Assembly (NCBI GenBank): GCA_030693295.1
Contig: JAUYAT010000024.1
Span: 1 to 36,282, forward strand
Reading direction: 5' to 3'
Source: a bacterium
Lineage (GTDB): Bacteria; Patescibacteriota; Patescibacteriia; Patescibacteriales; VMTK01
Length of the DNA stretch: 36,282 bases
A program made the position numbers and the translations under genes. The notes under the pieces are model-generated. The model worked only from the letters and a program-made list of their open reading frames with translations. It was not told the DNA's origin and ran no database searches. This document shows, piece after piece, positions 303 through 16,726 of the stretch; position 1 is the first letter of the stretch; each line of letters begins with the position of its first letter.

Positions 303-3185
303 ATGAGCGATACAAAAAGAAAATTAATGGTTATTGACGGCAACGCCTTAATTCACAGGAGCTTCCACGCCCTGCCGCCGACTTTAACCACGAAAAAAGG
401 CGAGATGGTTAACGCTGTTTACGGCTTTACCGCGGTTCTGCTTAAAGCAATCCGCGAATTTAAACCGGATTATATTGCCTTGACATTAGATAGGGCGGCT
501 CCGACTTTCAGGCATAAAGAATATAAGGAATATAAGGCGAACAGGGTAAAGGCGCCTGACGAGCTTTATGGCCAGATCCCCCGCGTCAAAGAAATAGCCC
601 AAGCTTTCAACATTCCGATTTACGAGAAAGACGGCTTTGAGGCCGATGATCTGATAGGCACCATTTCCCGGACAGTTGACGGCAATGTTGAAAAAATAAT
701 CGTAACCGGAGATCTGGATACTTTGCAGTTAATTAATGAGCACACAAAAGTTTACACTATGAAACGCGGCTTAACCGACGCTGTGCTTTATGATGAAAAA
801 GCAGTCAAGCAAAGATACGGCCTTAAGCCGGAGCAGATGATTGACTTTAAGGCGTTGCGCGGCGACCCGTCCGACAACATTCCCGGAGTTCGCGGCATCG
901 GCGAAAAAACCGCTGTTGAACTGCTTAAAAATTTTAAAACCTTGGATAATGTTTATAAAAACATAGACTCCGAAAAAATAAAAAGCCGGGTCCGCGATTT
1001 GTTAAGGCAGCACAAAGAAGACGCTTTAATGAGCAAAAAACTTGCGGCTATTGATTGCGCCGTTAAAATAAGCTTCAAGCTTGAAGAGGCGCGATTTTCC
1101 GGTTTTGACCGGGAAAAAGCGGCCCGGCTGTTCAGCGAGTTGGAATTCAAATCGCTTCTGCCGCGCCTGCAAAGCATCTCAGCCAAACAGCGGGATAAAA
1201 TGCCCAAGGAGCAGCAAGAGGCGTCCGCCGCCGATAAATTTGAGCGCAATATAAAATTATTTAAATACTATCTAATTGATAATGCAAAAGATTTTAATAA
1301 ATTTTTAGAAAAATTAGAACAGCGCGCTGAATTCGCGTTTGACACCGAAACCGCCAGCATTGATTCAATCAGCGCGGAATTGCTGGGAATGAGCTTTTCC
1401 TGGAAAGCCGGGGAAGCGTATTATATAAAAATCAAAAATCAAAAATCCCCGGCCGCGCACCCCTGGGGGCAGGCAAAAATCAAAAATCAAGAAAAAAATT
1501 TGTTTAATTATAAATCGGGAATTGAGAATCCATCCAGTTCAGTAAGCAAGCAGGAATCGGAAAGTAGTAATTTGTGGCTGGAAAAACTGAAGCCGATATT
1601 GGAAAATCCTAAAATTAAAAAATTCGGCCATAACATAAAATATGACATTAAAGTTATGAAATGTTATGGGATTGATATAAATGGAGTGGAGGCCGACACG
1701 ATGATCGCTTCTTATCTGTTAAACCCGGGCACGCGCCAGCATAATTTAGACGCCCTTGCCTTTACTGAATTAGGCCACCAAAAAATTACCAAAGAAGATT
1801 TGCTCGGCAAGGGCCGCGAAAAACGGGAATTCAGGGAAATTCCGGTTGATAAGCTTTATAACTATTCCTGCGAGGACGCTGATTTTACTTACCGTTTGGC
1901 TAAAAAGCTCTTGCCCGAATTAAAAAAGCAAAAATTAGACAAGCTGTTTGAAAAAATTGAAATGCCCTTAATCCAAGTTCTGGTTGAAATGGAAAGGAAC
2001 GGCATAAAAATAGACGGCGATTTCTTGGAAAAAATGGGCGAAAAAGCGGAAAAGAAAATTAAACAGCTTGAAGAAAAAATTTGCAAAATGGCGGGCGTAA
2101 AATTTAACATCAGCTCAACTCAGCAGCTGAGGGAAATATTGTATGAAAAACTGGAAATTCCCGCGGACAATATCGCCAAGATAAAAACCGGCTTGTCCAC
2201 TTCCGCCGAAGAACTGGAAAAACTGAAAGATTTGCATCCGATAATCAGGCTGATTCGGGAATACCGCGAATTAACCAAACTGCTTACCACCTACATAGGC
2301 GCTTTGCCTAAATTAATCAACCTGAAAACAGGACGCTTGCATACCAGCTTTAACCAAACAGTTACCGCAACCGGCCGGCTTTCATCAAGCGATCCGAATC
2401 TGCAGAATATCCCGATACGCACCGAGCTTGGCAGGGAAATACGCCAAGCGTTTATCGCCGACGCGGGATATAAATTGCTTTCTTTGGATTATTCGCAGAT
2501 TGAGCTGCGGCTGGCGGCGCATATGTCAAACGACAAAAAGATGATTAAAGCTTTTAATAATGGAGCGGACATCCATAAAATGACAGCGGCGGAAATTAAC
2601 CGGGTATCGCCGGAAGCGGTAACCCGAGAAATGCGGCGGCAAGCCAAAGCGATTAATTTCGGAATTATTTACGGCCAGGGGCCGCGCGGGTTGGCGCAGG
2701 GAGCCGATATTCCTTACGCGCGGGCAAAAGAATTTATTGAGCAATATTTTAACGCGTACAAAGATGTAAAAAAATATATTGACGAAACAATTAAGAAAGC
2801 CAGGGATAAAGGCTATACGGAAACTTTATTCGGGCGCATCAGATATTTGCCGGAAATAAATTCTTCCGTCTTGCAGGTCAGCAAAGCGGCGGAACGGATG
2901 GCGATTAACACTCCGCTCCAAGGCACGGCGGCCGATATGATTAAAATAGCCATGATAAAAATTAATGCGGAGGTTAACGCGAATTCCGATAATGCGCGAA
3001 TTAAGATGTTGTTGCAGGTGCATGATGAATTATTGTTTGAGGTAAAAGAAAATATGGTTGATGAAGCGGTTGAAAAAATCAAAGATATTATGGAAAATGT
3101 GATAAAATTAAAAGTGCCTGTCATAGTTGACGCGAAAGTCGGTGATAATTGGGGAGAGATGCGTGAATTAAGAATTAAGAATTAA
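303..3185 (+). CDS. polA: DNA polymerase I, with active-looking proofreading domain
   Basis: This 960-residue protein has all three Pol I domains. The 5'-3' nuclease covers about 1-300, with metal-binding acidic motifs FEADD (112-116) and GDLDT (136-140). The 3'-5' exonuclease keeps DTET (347-350), HNIKYD (443-448) and the YSCED motif near 521-525, so proofreading should be functional. The polymerase domain has SLDYSQIE with its Asp at 729, the O-helix RRQAKAINFG (778-787) and QVHDEL (905-910). It fills gaps and removes primers during replication and repair. Residues about 376-396 are a repeat-derived insertion in the exonuclease domain, between the first two exo motifs. The last six residues are encoded by 7-nt tandem repeats. 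murD begins five bases after the stop. Confidence 0.97.
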   Translation: MSDTKRKLMVIDGNALIHRSFHALPPTLTTKKGEMVNAVYGFTAVLLKAIREFKPDYIALTLDRAAPTFRHKEYKEYKANRVKAPDELYGQIPRVKEIAQAFNIPIYEKDGFEADDLIGTISRTVDGNVEKIIVTGDLDTLQLINEHTKVYTMKRGLTDAVLYDEKAVKQRYGLKPEQMIDFKALRGDPSDNIPGVRGIGEKTAVELLKNFKTLDNVYKNIDSEKIKSRVRDLLRQHKEDALMSKKLAAIDCAVKISFKLEEARFSGFDREKAARLFSELEFKSLLPRLQSISAKQRDKMPKEQQEASAADKFERNIKLFKYYLIDNAKDFNKFLEKLEQRAEFAFDTETASIDSISAELLGMSFSWKAGEAYYIKIKNQKSPAAHPWGQAKIKNQEKNLFNYKSGIENPSSSVSKQESESSNLWLEKLKPILENPKIKKFGHNIKYDIKVMKCYGIDINGVEADTMIASYLLNPGTRQHNLDALAFTELGHQKITKEDLLGKGREKREFREIPVDKLYNYSCEDADFTYRLAKKLLPELKKQKLDKLFEKIEMPLIQVLVEMERNGIKIDGDFLEKMGEKAEKKIKQLEEKICKMAGVKFNISSTQQLREILYEKLEIPADNIAKIKTGLSTSAEELEKLKDLHPIIRLIREYRELTKLLTTYIGALPKLINLKTGRLHTSFNQTVTATGRLSSSDPNLQNIPIRTELGREIRQAFIADAGYKLLSLDYSQIELRLAAHMSNDKKMIKAFNNGADIHKMTAAEINRVSPEAVTREMRRQAKAINFGIIYGQGPRGLAQGADIPYARAKEFIEQYFNAYKDVKKYIDETIKKARDKGYTETLFGRIRYLPEINSSVLQVSKAAERMAINTPLQGTAADMIKIAMIKINAEVNANSDNARIKMLLQVHDELLFEVKENMVDEAVEKIKDIMENVIKLKVPVIVDAKVGDNWGEMRELRIKN
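1427..1488 (+). repeat. Heptamer array with embedded GC-rich element inside polA
   Basis: Three perfect copies of AAAAATC (1427-1447) are followed by a 27-bp GC-rich block (1448-1474) beginning CCCGGCCGCGCACC and ending GGGGCAGGC, then two more AAAAATC copies (1475-1488). The whole stretch is translated within PolA as a KIKNQK/SPAAHPWGQ/AKIKNQ segment. The GC block matches one inside lgt. Confidence 0.9.
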
Positions 3186-3186
3186 G
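3166..3186 (+). repeat. AATTAAG heptamer array across the polA stop codon
   Basis: Three perfect tandem AATTAAG units plus a partial fourth run over the end of polA and up to the murD ATG. They encode the last residues of PolA and its TAA stop. Confidence 0.9.
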
Positions 3187-3190
3187 AATT

Positions 3191-4594
3191 ATGGAAAATA
3201 TTTTAAAAAAATTGCAAGACAAAAAAATCGCCATTCTGGGATTGGGCATTGAAAATTATTGCTTGATTAAATATTTGCTGAAAAATAAAATAAACTGCGA
3301 AATCACGGTTTGCGATAAAAGAGAATTTGATAAATTGGCGGAGATTAAAAATTTTGCTTCTCTGCAAAAAATAAAAAAGGTAAAATGGCGGCTGGGCAAA
3401 AATTATGATAAAAATTTAGCTGAATTTGATATTCTTTTCCGTTCGCCCGGCTGGCCTTTATCCAAATTACCCCCTCTCCTTGCGAAGGAGAGGGCTGGGG
3501 TGAGGTTATCCAGCCCGATGAAATTATTTTTTAATCTCTGCCCGACCAGAAATATTATCGGCGTAACCGGCACCAAGGGCAAAGGCACAACCGCGTCTCT
3601 GATTTATCATATTCTTAAAAAAGCCGGCAAAAAAGCATGGCTGGGCGGAAATATCGGCGTGGCGCCGTTTGAATTTATTGATAAAATCAAAAAAAACGAC
3701 TGGGTGGTTTTAGAATTATCCAGCTTTCAATTGGAAGATATGGCGGCAAGCCCGCGCATTGCCGTGATAACCAATTTCCATAAAGAACACCTGGCTCCGA
3801 CCGACCCGAATAATCCGAATTACCACCGTACGCTTAAAGATTATTGGAAGGCGAAGAGTAATATATTTAAATGGCAAAATAAGAGGGATTACTTGGTGAT
3901 AAGTAAAAATTTTCAATTTTCAATTTTCAATTTTCAATCAATATCCAATTTTAAAATTTTCAATTTTCAAAATTTATATAAAAAGAATTATAAGGGTAAA
4001 ATTATTTTTTTTGATAAATCTGATTTGGCGTCTAAATTAATCGGCGAACATAATGAGGAAAATATCGCGGCGGCTGTTGAGGTTGCCAAAATTGTCGGCA
4101 TTAATAATGAGATTATTAAAAAAGCGGTTGTTAGTTTCAACGGCCTTGAGCACAGATTGGAATTTGTGAAAAAAATAAACGGAGTAAAATATTATAATGA
4201 CAGTTTCGCCACCACGCCGGAGTCGGCAATCACCGCCTTGAAATCATTCACGGAACCGATTGTTCTGCTGGCCGGCGGCGCGGAAAAGAAGTCTGATTTC
4301 AAACAATTGGCCAAAGAAATAAAAAAACGGGTTCAGTTTATGGTTTTGCTTGACGGCAAAGCCACGCCCCGGCTGAAAAAAGAATTAACAAAAGCAAATT
4401 TCCCGCGAAACAAAATGTTTTTGGCCAAAAACATTAAACAAGCGGTTAGAGAAGCGGGTAAAAACGCGGCCAAAGGCGGCATTGTCTTGCTTTCCCCGGC
4501 CTGCGCCAGCTTCGGCATGTTTAGGAACTACAAAGAAAGGGGAAAATTATTCAAAGAAGAAATCAAAAACAAAACCATTGCTGGCTTTGTTTAA
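3191..4594 (+). CDS. murD: UDP-N-acetylmuramoylalanine--D-glutamate ligase (MurD)
   Basis: This cytoplasmic ligase adds D-glutamate to UDP-MurNAc-L-Ala in peptidoglycan synthesis, using ATP. The 467 residues show an N-terminal Rossmann-like uridine-binding domain (ILGLGIENY, 15-23). The Mur ligase P-loop is GVTGTKGKGTTAS (124-136), and the C-terminal ligase domain carries NDSFATTPES and the late SPACASFGMF motif typical of MurD. Two segments look added: 94-106, encoded by a CCCTCTCC palindrome, and 241-261, a Phe/Asn/Gln-rich stretch encoded by TTTTCAA heptamers. Both keep the frame. It lies directly behind polA and is probably cotranscribed. Confidence 0.93.
   Translation: MENILKKLQDKKIAILGLGIENYCLIKYLLKNKINCEITVCDKREFDKLAEIKNFASLQKIKKVKWRLGKNYDKNLAEFDILFRSPGWPLSKLPPLLAKERAGVRLSSPMKLFFNLCPTRNIIGVTGTKGKGTTASLIYHILKKAGKKAWLGGNIGVAPFEFIDKIKKNDWVVLELSSFQLEDMAASPRIAVITNFHKEHLAPTDPNNPNYHRTLKDYWKAKSNIFKWQNKRDYLVISKNFQFSIFNFQSISNFKIFNFQNLYKKNYKGKIIFFDKSDLASKLIGEHNEENIAAAVEVAKIVGINNEIIKKAVVSFNGLEHRLEFVKKINGVKYYNDSFATTPESAITALKSFTEPIVLLAGGAEKKSDFKQLAKEIKKRVQFMVLLDGKATPRLKKELTKANFPRNKMFLAKNIKQAVREAGKNAAKGGIVLLSPACASFGMFRNYKERGKLFKEEIKNKTIAGFV
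3472..3494 (+). repeat. CCCTCTCC palindromic element, in frame in murD
   Basis: CCCTCTCCTT, a 3-nt loop GCG, then AAGGAGAGGG, followed by CTGGGGTGAGG. It is the exact reverse complement of the 23-mer at 17510-17532 and is translated as part of PLLAKERAGVRL. Confidence 0.88.
3910..3970 (+). repeat. TTTTCAA heptamer arrays, in frame in murD
   Basis: Four perfect TTTTCAA copies (3910-3937), a 19-nt gap, then two more copies (3957-3970). The array is read through as a low-complexity Phe/Asn/Gln segment of MurD. Confidence 0.9.
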
Positions 4595-4620
4595 TAAAAG
4601 CTTTTAAGTTGCCGTTTACA

Positions 4621-4815
4621 TTAAACTTCCTCTTCTTCTGTCCGGCCGGCAAGCTCTTCGTCCAAATCGCTTTCAACAATGGCAATCTGCAGGGGGTGTA
4701 AAAAAATAATTTCCAACTCCGCTCCGCAATTGGCGCATTCAGCCAAATCTCCTTCAAAGGCATCTTCTTCAATAATGATGTCACTGTTACAAACAGGGCA
4801 TTTTGCCGTTTGCAT
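4621..4815 (-). CDS. LysW-like zinc-ribbon carrier protein
   Basis: A 64-residue acidic protein with two Cys pairs (CPVC at 6-9 and CANC at 28-31) that should form one zinc ribbon. The arrangement CPxC-x18-CxxC, followed by GAELEI and LHPLQ and an acidic C-terminus (EEEEV), resembles LysW, the amino-group carrier of lysine/arginine biosynthesis by the alpha-aminoadipate route. LysW usually ends in EDWGE and its terminal Glu accepts the substrate; this one ends in Val. No other lysine or arginine genes are nearby, so a carrier role is not established. It is convergent with murD and divergent from holA, with its own promoter. Confidence 0.75.
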   Translation of the reverse strand: MQTAKCPVCNSDIIIEEDAFEGDLAECANCGAELEIIFLHPLQIAIVESDLDEELAGRTEEEEV

Positions 4816-4853
4816 AATAAATTTGTTATTTTTTTATTAATTACTGTACTTTC

Positions 4854-4882
4854 ATATTAGCAGATTAATTTATAAATTACAA
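4854..4882 (-). promoter_or_regulatory. Sigma70-type promoter for the LysW-like gene
   Basis: On the minus strand, TTGTAA (4882-4877), a 17-nt spacer and TAATAT (4859-4854). Transcription would start around 4847, giving a leader of about 30 nt. Confidence 0.55.
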
Positions 4883-4884
4883 AC

Positions 4885-5931
4885 ATGATTATTTTTCTTT
4901 ACGGCGATGATTCATTCAGAAGCCGGCAAAAATTAAACGAATTAAAAGAAAAATTTTTGCGCGAGGTTGACCCGAGCGGCAACAGTTTAACCGCGCTTGA
5001 CGGCGAAACCGCGCCAATGGAAAAAATTAACGAAGCAATCGGCTCGGGAACTTTATTGGCTAAAAAAAGAATGGTAATAATTGAAAACATATTTTCCAAC
5101 AAAAGCCAAGCTGTTTTCGGCCAAATTTTAAATTACTTAAAAAATAAAAAAACAACCGACAATATCATTATTTTTTGGGATTCCGCGGTTAAAGCGAAAA
5201 AAAGCAAAAACAGGGAAGAAGCGTTAAAAATAGATTCCGAAGGCAGGGAAAAAAAACTGCCGGCCGATCCGCTGAAGCTGTTTGAATTTTTAGCCAAGCA
5301 AAAATACGCCCAGCAATTCAACGCGCTTTCCAACACTGAAGCGGCCGGCTGGGCCAAAAAAGAAGTTGAGGCCCGAGGAGGCAAAATAACCGCCCGAGCG
5401 GCGCAAACATTAATCAGCTTAACCGGCGGCGACCTGTGGCAAGCGAGCAATGAAATTAATAAACTGCTGAATTATAAATTAGGCAAGGAGCCGAAGCTGG
5501 CTGAAGGCGGCGAACCGGCTATCATTGAAGCGGAAGACGTGGAACTCTTGACACGGGGTAATTTTGATGAAAATATTTTCGCCCTTACGGATGCCGTCAG
5601 CAGTAAAAATAAAGCGCTCGCAGCCAAATTATTGGAAGAACAAATTGAGGCCGGCTTAACCGACAGCCATTTAATCGTTATGATTATCAGGCAGTTTAGA
5701 ATTCTGCTGCAAATCAGGCAGGCGTTGGATTTGGGACATACTTCCCGCAAAATGATCAGCCAGTTGAAACTTCATCCTTTTATCGTTCAAAAAGGAATAA
5801 ACCAGGTGCGCAACTTCAGCTTGCCCGCTTTAAAAAATATATTAAATGAACTGGTTAAGATTGACTATCGGATGAAAACCGGACAAGCTGACGCGAAGAC
5901 TATGCTTAATTTGCTGATTGCGAAAATGTAG
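4885..5931 (+). CDS. holA: DNA polymerase III delta subunit (clamp loader)
   Basis: The 348-residue length fits HolA. The opening MIIFLYGDDSFRSRQKLNEL is the usual start of the delta subunit AAA+-like domain. Further on, ALTDAVSSKNKALAAKLLEE and the helical C-terminal collar region ending in DAKTMLNLLIAKM are also typical. Delta opens the beta sliding clamp within the clamp-loader complex. There is no clear ribosome binding site. The gene stands alone and is followed at once by a strong terminator. Confidence 0.9.
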   Translation: MIIFLYGDDSFRSRQKLNELKEKFLREVDPSGNSLTALDGETAPMEKINEAIGSGTLLAKKRMVIIENIFSNKSQAVFGQILNYLKNKKTTDNIIIFWDSAVKAKKSKNREEALKIDSEGREKKLPADPLKLFEFLAKQKYAQQFNALSNTEAAGWAKKEVEARGGKITARAAQTLISLTGGDLWQASNEINKLLNYKLGKEPKLAEGGEPAIIEAEDVELLTRGNFDENIFALTDAVSSKNKALAAKLLEEQIEAGLTDSHLIVMIIRQFRILLQIRQALDLGHTSRKMISQLKLHPFIVQKGINQVRNFSLPALKNILNELVKIDYRMKTGQADAKTMLNLLIAKM

Positions 5932-5940
5932 TTAAAGCAC

Positions 5941-5966
5941 AAAAACCCCCGCTCTCGGGGGTTTTT
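5941..5966 (+). terminator. Rho-independent terminator of holA
   Basis: A perfect 11-bp stem AAAAACCCCCG / CGGGGGTTTTT with a CTCT loop, lying ten bases after the holA stop codon. Confidence 0.93.
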
Positions 5967-6006
5967 GTTAACTGCAGTTACGATTATAAAGAACTATTAA
6001 AACAAA

Positions 6007-6043
6007 CAAAAACTGTAATCTTTATTAAATATTACAGTTTTTG
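6007..6043 (-). terminator. Terminator facing rpsT
   Basis: CAAAAACTGTAAT (6007-6019) pairs perfectly with ATTACAGTTTTTG (6031-6043). Read on the minus strand it is followed by a T-rich tail and lies just past the rpsT stop. A small extra hairpin TCCGTG/CACGGA (6049-6065) sits between them. Confidence 0.8.
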
Positions 6044-6072
6044 TTTACTCCGTGAATTACACGGAATAAATC

Positions 6073-6339
6073 TTAAACCTTTGAAGCTTGGTTAAGCTTT
6101 TTTTGCAATCTGGATTTTTTTCTGTCGCGCGTATTTTTCTTAATAATCCCTTTTTGCGCCGCCTTATCCAATGCTTTCATTGTTTTCATCACCAATTCTT
6201 TCGCCTGAATTTCTTTGGCTTCAATCGCCTTGCGGCTCTTTTTAATCGCTGATTTTAAGCCGTCTTTAATCTTTTTATTCGCGGCTTGCTTGATAAAACT
6301 TTTGCGCAATTCTTTTTTTGCTGATTTGGTATTCGGCAT
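6073..6339 (-). CDS. rpsT: 30S ribosomal protein S20
   Basis: An 88-residue, strongly basic helical protein. It begins MPNTKSAKKELRKS and continues with NKKIKDGLKSAIKKS and the KGIIKKNTRDRKKSRL segment, which is the classic bS20 pattern. It binds 16S rRNA in the body of the small subunit. It lies 23 bases downstream of lgt on the same strand, so cotranscription is likely. Confidence 0.95.
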   Translation of the reverse strand: MPNTKSAKKELRKSFIKQAANKKIKDGLKSAIKKSRKAIEAKEIQAKELVMKTMKALDKAAQKGIIKKNTRDRKKSRLQKKLNQASKV

Positions 6340-6362
6340 ATTTATTATTGAGAATAAGTTTA

Positions 6363-7241
6363 TTACTTTTGTATATTAACACGGCTTTTAATTTTTGGCA
6401 AGAGCAGTAACGCAACGGATAAAAATATAATTACAAGACTGGCAATTTGCGGAAAGCGCAGATTAAAAATAACGGGCGTTTTGTCAATTCTAATGAACTC
6501 TGTGGAAAAACGCAATATGGAATATAGAATCGTATAACTTAAAACATGAAACATAAAACATGCCTGCCCCGCTGCGCGGTGCGCGGCCGGGGAAACATAA
6601 AACATATTTTGTTCGGCTGGATTTATATTTTTTTTCTTTATAATTCTATTATGAATCGCGATCAGTATAAAAAATATTACAAAATTGCCGATGCTTTCGT
6701 ATAAAAAAGTCGGGTGGAAAAATTCATAACTGATGTATTCAATCGGGCGGTTCATTAAATCAATCGGTATGCCCCAAGGCAAACCGGTCGGCTTGCCAAA
6801 CAGCTCCTGGTTGAAATAATTGCCCCAGCGGCCGATCGCCTGCGCTAAAGCCATGCCCGGAACGATGATTGACGCCGCCAGCCAAGGGTTTAGCTCCCGC
6901 TTTTTGGCGAACAGCCAAATGGTGATTATTCCGGCTATAATCGCGCCGTGGATAGCCAGTCCGCCCTGCCAAATTTTAAAAATATCAAGCGGATGATTTA
7001 AGTAATACGGCAATTCAAGCAAGACATCATAAAGACGGGCGCCGATAATACCGAAGATTACCAAATAAAAAGCCAGGTCAATTATTACCTCTTTTTTTAT
7101 ATTATAATAACCGGCTAATTTTAACGCTGTAAAAATCGCCGCCAATATGCCAAAAACTACAAGCAAGCCGTACCAATAAATATTGATCGGGCCGAAAGAA
7201 ATTAAGATTGGATTTGGATGGAAAGCGTGGAGGAAAGACAT
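6363..7241 (-). CDS. lgt: Prolipoprotein diacylglyceryl transferase
   Basis: This polytopic membrane enzyme transfers diacylglycerol from phosphatidylglycerol to the lipobox cysteine of prelipoproteins. Taking the start as MSFLHAFHPN (ATG at 7241) gives 292 residues. An in-frame ATG at 7274 would add eleven residues encoded by heptamer repeats and is less likely. Visible hallmarks are GGLAIHGA with His98, the signature GRWGNYFNQELFG (137-149) and RFSTEFIR near 244-251. Residues about 213-232 (FYVSPAAHRAAGQA and flanks) are a repeat-derived insertion placed between transmembrane helices. Its natural substrate type occurs in the window: the lipoprotein at 25429. Confidence 0.94.
   Translation of the reverse strand: MSFLHAFHPNPILISFGPINIYWYGLLVVFGILAAIFTALKLAGYYNIKKEVIIDLAFYLVIFGIIGARLYDVLLELPYYLNHPLDIFKIWQGGLAIHGAIIAGIITIWLFAKKRELNPWLAASIIVPGMALAQAIGRWGNYFNQELFGKPTGLPWGIPIDLMNRPIEYISYEFFHPTFLYESIGNFVIFFILIAIHNRIIKKKNINPAEQNMFYVSPAAHRAAGQACFMFHVLSYTILYSILRFSTEFIRIDKTPVIFNLRFPQIASLVIIFLSVALLLLPKIKSRVNIQK
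6541..6605 (+). repeat. Heptamer array with embedded GC-rich element inside lgt
   Basis: Three RAAACAT units (6541-6561), a 30-bp GC-rich block (6562-6591), then two more units (6592-6605). The reverse complement of the block starts CCCGGCCGCGCACC and ends GGGGCAGGC, matching the block in polA at both ends. The arrangement (3 units, block, 2 units) is also the same. Confidence 0.9.
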
Positions 7242-7903: not shown

Positions 7904-8000
7904 TGAGAGCGTTAAATAATTCTATTCTGTCATTCCCGCGAAAGCGGGAATCCAGGAGTTGGCGCATAGAATCTGGATTCCCGCTTTCGCGGGAATGACA
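7904..8000. repeat. Long inverted repeat (ATTCCCGC family), copy 1
   Basis: Perfect 28-bp arms (7928-7955 and 7973-8000) begin TGTCATTCCCGC and end GGGAATGACA, separated by a 17-nt loop. Each arm contains its own smaller palindrome ATTCCC-N8-GGGAAT, the pattern known from neisserial dRS3 repeats. The 24 bases before the arm, starting TGAGAGCGTT, recur in front of copy 3 at 16529. Confidence 0.92.
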
Positions 8001-12803: not shown

Positions 12804-12880
12804 CCCCCGTAAAAATTTGCTAAAGCAAATTCACGGGGCAGGCCCTCCAAGTGCGGGCAGGCCCTCCAAAGGCGGGCAAG
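12804..12880. repeat. GC hairpin plus tandem 19-bp repeat
   Basis: A hairpin CCCCGT...ACGGGG closes on AATTTGC/GCAAATT (12804-12838). It is followed by two 19-bp units beginning GCAGGCCCTCCAA (12838-12856 and 12857-12875, 17 of 19 identical) and a partial third. It is noncoding, and the GGGGCAGGC string matches the end of the GC element found in polA and lgt. Confidence 0.75.
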
Positions 12881-12938
12881 CAAACCACGGTAATAAAAAC
12901 TTTGTTTTAACTACGGGGTAGCTGATAACTCTTGCGAT

Positions 12939-16340: not shown

Positions 16341-16415
16341 TGTCATTCCCGCGAAAGCGGGAATCCAGGGGTTAAGCGAGTAAAATCTGGATTCCCAATC
16401 AAGTTGGGAATGACA
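16341..16415. repeat. Long inverted repeat (ATTCCCGC family), copy 2
   Basis: It begins TGTCATTCCCGC and ends GGGAATGACA. Inner arms GAATCCAG/CTGGATTC surround an 18-nt loop. The right half has diverged: its inner palindrome is ATTCCCAATC-AAG-TTGGGAAT rather than the GCGAAAGC type. Confidence 0.88.
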
Positions 16416-16528: not shown

Positions 16529-16726
16529 TGAGAGCGTTGAACAATTCTATTCTGTCATTCCCGCCCGCTTCGCCGGAGCTTCAGCGAGGCGAGCGAAAGC
16601 GGGAATCCATGAGTAAACCGCAAAAACACGAAAATAAATAAAAAGTTAAAAAGCATCACAATACTCTTATCTATCTTCTTATTCATGCCGCTAACCCCTG
16701 GATTCCCAATCAATTTGGGAATGACA
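16529..16726. repeat. Long inverted repeat (ATTCCCGC family), copy 3, expanded
   Basis: The outer ends are TGTCATTCCC (from 16553) and GGGAATGACA (to 16726). The left palindrome is expanded by a GC-rich stretch (CCGCTTCGCCGGAGCTTCAG and beyond), and the central loop is about 90 bp. The 24 bases before it match those before copy 1 (22 of 24). Confidence 0.85.

Follow-up and report, generated by a model that had tools for sequence, protein, structure and literature searches.

Two unrelated conserved genes, polA and lgt, each carry a GC-rich block inside an array of heptamers within the window, by which we mean the whole 36,282-nucleotide stretch of DNA analysed. What is this block, and how did it come to sit in both genes? 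In polA (303–3185, forward strand), three AAAAATC units in frame (1427–1447) are followed by a 27-bp block (1448–1474), in frame within the PolA 3′-5′ exonuclease domain, and by two more units (1475–1488). The lgt gene (6366–7241, reverse strand) carries, in its own orientation, two heptamers (ATGTTTT and ATGTTTC, 6592–6605), a 30-bp block in frame (6562–6591) and three further heptamers (6541–6561), of RAAACAT type as read on the forward strand. Both genes are intact across their inserts, polA scoring 1091.9 bits with the NCBIfam DNA polymerase I model (cut-off 720) and lgt 176.9 bits with TIGR00544 (cut-off 118.9).

The first-pass annotation had pointed out the blocks at 1427–1488 and 6541–6605. 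Both are there as described, and the ends said to be common to them, CCCGGCCGCGCACC and GGGGCAGGC, agree exactly, while the family proves larger than it had noted. The identical 3+2 layout that it saw does not hold up: in the element orientation polA is 3+2 but lgt is 2+3, since the blocks lie on opposite strands, and the unit numbers vary at other copies. The translation SPAAH..GQA is indeed used at these two loci but represents just one of three sense frames found among the copies.

The genome to which the window belongs (62 contigs, 1,056,697 bp, 39.7% GC) was scanned in full and without gaps for the 30-bp consensus of the block, CCCGGCCGCGCACCGCGCAGCGGGGCAGGC, which we call family 1. There are 21 copies at three or fewer mismatches and none at four to six, and the reversed genome, serving as a chance control, gave no match below 10 mismatches. 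Given this gap in divergence and the empty control, the recurrence is not due to chance. The census rises to 24 with three more: the polA form of 27 bp, one diverged copy (C19:8227) and one nested copy of 60 bp (C3:3656), the sole nested one of this family.

The lgt copy equals the consensus, and the polA variant has CCTG in place of the central GCGCAGC. The family-1 ends are CCCGG and CAGGC. The element is predicted to fold into a hairpin with a 5-nt tail, CAGGC, and the fold predicted for the polA variant differs from that of the other copies. Covariation in the family-1 hairpin was not above that in shuffles (93.0% against 92.9% paired). The unit has a length that is a multiple of three and contains no stop codon in any of the six frames.

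Heptamer arrays house 18 of the 24 copies and a REPIN-like palindrome the other six. Read in the element orientation, the base on the 5′ side is C in every copy and the base on the 3′ side is A in 23. Under strict criteria, in-phase heptamers surround 13 copies, compared with 0.13% of random genomic C sites. The array units differ from locus to locus, AAATCCC, ATAATTC, AAATTAC, AATATCC, AAAGTTC, AATTTCC and others, and are mostly of the form A....YC.

Such arrays are a feature of the genome in themselves. Seven is its outstanding short period, with 114 runs against about 10 expected, and 126 heptamer arrays are present, about half of them within called ORFs. Arrays of at least 18 bp make up 0.29% of the sequence, and three quarters of the block's copies nevertheless lie in arrays; the insertion preference for them that was first suspected is borne out, and the block is not a sequence found mostly elsewhere. 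Across the order, AAAATTC arrays occur in 34 of 111 genomes and 27 of 59 genera, against three of the 111 genomes for family 1, so the arrays are independent of the element. They are also present in sampled stretches of relatives free of the block.

The palindromes allow empty and filled sites to be compared. About 100 copies of GGATTCCC..GGGAATGAC exist in the genome, and their loop is empty eight times as AATCAAGTT (AATC|AAG) and 15 times as AGTCAAGCT (AGTC|AAG). Three palindromes hold the family-1 block exactly between C and AAG, being 30 bp longer, and one AGTC|AAG site has a 19-bp block, CCTCCAAAGGCGGGCAGGC, inserted. The window itself shows an empty target in this REPIN palindrome, GGATTCCCAATC|AAGTTGGGAATGAC (16389–16414, forward strand), that is filled at C28:2399 and C38:1429. 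It also shows an empty REPIN-like pair (7929–7999, no strand assigned) with the site GGGAATCC|AGGAG, which is empty many times in the genome and filled three times, at C38:141, C45:868 and C59:2911.

No target-site duplication separates the filled from the empty REPIN sites, apart from one ambiguous C. Comparison of the two states hence gives an insert of exactly 30 bp without such duplication, and family 1 lacks the target duplication by which TIR transposons and MITEs are recognised. With heptamers on both flanks of a copy and an insertion that duplicates nothing, the array must predate the element. We had considered that arrays arose by 7-base target duplication with excision footprints and dropped the idea, as the REPIN insertions duplicate nothing. 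Some REPIN copies probably share a single insertion event and were amplified together with the REPIN.

About two thirds of the family-1 copies lie within long ORFs, and most copies are in frame within conserved genes. Among the 17 intragenic copies, 14 are in sense orientation, using all three sense frames, and three are antisense. The curated models of PolA, Lgt, MnmA, Der, TsaD, ValS and PrmC match above cut-off through the block. The tsaD gene (C45:40612–41838) scores above the TsaD cut-off even with two family-1 copies, which are in different reading frames. The exception is recG (C3:2550–4800), which falls into two frames, the break coinciding exactly with heptamers and the nested 60-bp element, possibly by phase variation, as a pseudogene or through an assembly error.

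Alignments place the PolA and Lgt inserts in loops of variable length, and the segment is absent from both proteins in at least 15 relatives, an outcome that the first-pass annotation had put forward for checking. With a length divisible by three, no stops and a place in arrays that loops already tolerate, the unit would leave the genes working, and many copies would for this reason survive in essential genes. The PolA exonuclease-domain loop appears as a hotspot of repeat growth: relatives have other 7-, 8- or 14-bp repeats there, another genus has a different hairpin, TCCGCCAGCTGGCGGA, and unrelated tandem repeats or hairpins occupy it in many genera. Elsewhere in the window, the final codons and stop of polA fall within a GAATTAA heptamer array (3165–3191), and murD holds in frame an array of AATTTTC units together with a REP-like palindrome, ccctctccttgcgaaggagaggg (3908–3970 and 3470–3510).

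In a 381-genome sample of the class, to which genomes G046 and G105 do not belong, the element was found solely in the window's genome. Two patterns searched for exactly in the named genome collection and in viral contigs returned no match. A looser pattern returned, from the same collections, a G046 contig and five isolated matches, which lie in GC-rich sequence without heptamers and are apparently due to chance.

At least two further families, one of 19 bp and one of self-nesting 30-bp units, act like family 1 in this genome. Family-2-like 19-nt units (CCTCCAAAGGCGGGCARGC) stand head to tail at 12836–12881 (forward strand). A 30-bp family-3 element, CCGCTTCGCCGGAGCTTCAGCGAGGCGAGC, occupies a REPIN loop at 16565–16594 (forward strand); this family enlarges the loop from 8 to 38 nt and, by nesting in itself, to 68 and 98 nt, and at C27:4704 it lies within a heptamer array. 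It is present in 17 of the 111 genomes of the order, spanning 14 genera and with six head-to-tail copies in one genome, whereas its backward pattern, used as a control, is found in none of the 111. A loose search for further hairpins ending in CRRGC added few to those in arrays. Peptides such as VGTGQCPV recur in unrelated ORFs, for example on C19, C38 and C45, which suggests further palindromic families in coding sequence.

The closest known relatives in habit are the small dispersed repeats (SDRs) of cyanobacteria; we class family 1 as SDR-like rather than as an SDR, a match made with descriptions of SDRs rather than with their sequences. The Nostoc SDRs are said to be hairpin-forming dispersed units of tens of bases, 21–27 nt long, that insert precisely, sit in tandem heptamers and minitransposons and nest in themselves, their secondary structure reportedly being supported by compensatory changes. 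SDR1–8 of Nostoc punctiforme and relatives are reportedly the subject of Elhai et al. 2008, Genome Res 18:1484. Family 1 likewise is dispersed and a few tens of bases long (24 copies, 30 bp), embedded in arrays (18) or REPINs (six), and self-nesting recurs here in the family-3 loops of 8, 38, 68 and 98 nt and in one family-1 copy. The differences are that the host, whose genome size suggests a CPR-type bacterium, is, as far as can be told, not a cyanobacterium, that units of 19–30 bp lie mostly in frame within essential protein genes and that the hairpin of family 1 gives no clear sign of compensatory changes. PMC3116915 and PMC4390886 cite the Nostoc SDRs, and the latter describes SDR5 as inserted precisely in HIP1.

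Other systems share single traits. Rickettsia palindromic elements are palindromic selfish repeats that, like family 1, enter unrelated conserved genes without breaking the frame (PMC10969869), but they are about 150 bp long with a conserved peptide frame, whereas family 1, at 30 bp, is read in every frame and on both strands and goes into heptamer arrays. REP elements are palindromes of 20–40 bp with an unpaired end motif, some within replication and repair genes (PMC3733652). Family 1 is also a short palindrome with an unpaired end in such genes, but it has no GTAG or CGTC tag and no linked RAYT, occurs as single copies rather than inverted doublets and is largely intragenic. Heptamer arrays of variable unit are over-represented in Nostoc, Xanthomonas and Calothrix (PMC4692102) as they are here, where the units are AT-rich, about half lie in ORFs and they serve as targets of hairpin elements.

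We consider it likely that the GC block represents a tiny, non-autonomous mobile element, inserting precisely and without duplication into pre-existing arrays and REPIN sites. The element would always enter the same way round, directly 3′ of a C and nearly always before an A. Each unit of an AT-rich heptamer array would supply one YC|A junction, fixed sites in the REPIN-like palindrome would be a second type of target, and insertion into arrays within protein loops would leave the reading frames working. The empty paralogous sites and the insert-free relatives point, at the level of sequence, to recent mobility. The movement would need trans-acting machinery, working through single-stranded DNA in an HUH-like manner or through RNA, and a common one would move several hairpin families with similar ends.

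Two other accounts dispense with arrays as ready-made targets. The block and its heptamers may move as one composite element, as the first-pass annotation proposed from the likeness of the polA and lgt loci; yet the flanking heptamers vary by locus, the six REPIN copies are without them and arrays occur in genera free of the block, which leaves this account with almost no credit. Alternatively, the hairpin may come first, a GC hairpin stalling replication so that slippage builds the heptamers, or a 7-bp duplication made at insertion expanding later. The heptamers are in phase on both flanks at most array loci, and published work on heptamers in bacteria offers slippage as a guess (PMC4692102), but the REPIN sites are without duplication, arrays exist in genera without the element and the genome has 126 arrays against just 18 copies in arrays. 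A hairpin-first origin is thus quite improbable.

Within the preferred reading of a mobile element, the two routes of movement differ in their fit. An HUH single-strand route is plausible, as it accords with duplication-free insertion in a single orientation, and the element may then be a REP element moved by a RAYT (Y1 HUH) transposase, its reverse complement being a 5-nt tag, GCCTG, plus hairpin. A hairpin with a short unpaired tag agrees with this, a RAYT-like ORF (184 aa, C8:30188–31000) is present in the genome and Y1 genes occur in 15 of the 17 genomes with family 3 against 40 of the 94 others. But the tag is neither GTAG nor CGTC, the ORF is flanked by different hairpins, GGTCTCGGCACAGTC..GACTGTGCCG, with just two full copies, and beside it only GGTCTCGGCACAGTC hairpins and no family-1 element are found. 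The order-wide association with Y1 vanishes within families (p=0.21), for which reason we set aside a Y1 transposase as the mobiliser, and movement by a RAYT seems possible but doubtful. Spread through RNA, by insertion into transcripts and then reverse transcription, is less likely still; it has reportedly been proposed for the cyanobacterial SDRs. The sense orientation of most intragenic copies would suit it, but the heptamer arrays are equally biased (49:5) and the bias is accounted for by TCA junctions that read TGA on the other strand, so we do not take it as a sign of RNA mobility. The only reverse transcriptase found (413 aa) belongs to a diversity-generating retroelement (C56:487–3599) with a C-type-lectin-like target and a template repeat with adenine-type differences, and was rejected as the mobiliser.

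A wider proposal is that machinery of this order mobilises unrelated hairpins of up to 30 nt (ends 5′ CC and 3′ GGCRRGC) without duplication at C|R, with period-7 arrays preferred. We regard it as possible, though short of likely. Elements so short encode nothing, and their movement has called for an explanation ever since the description of SDRs. Here the clean empty and filled sites leave no more than one base of doubt about the insertion point and no room for a target duplication. The order includes genomes with and without each family, a setting for a search for the machinery.

In this reduced genome essential proteins retain the elements in frame. The insertions can supply new surface loops, and the 7-bp repeats can supply frameshifts, as in RecG. 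If the proposal is true, such hairpins would make up a class of minimal mobile elements that separate phyla have in common and that adds peptides to essential proteins.
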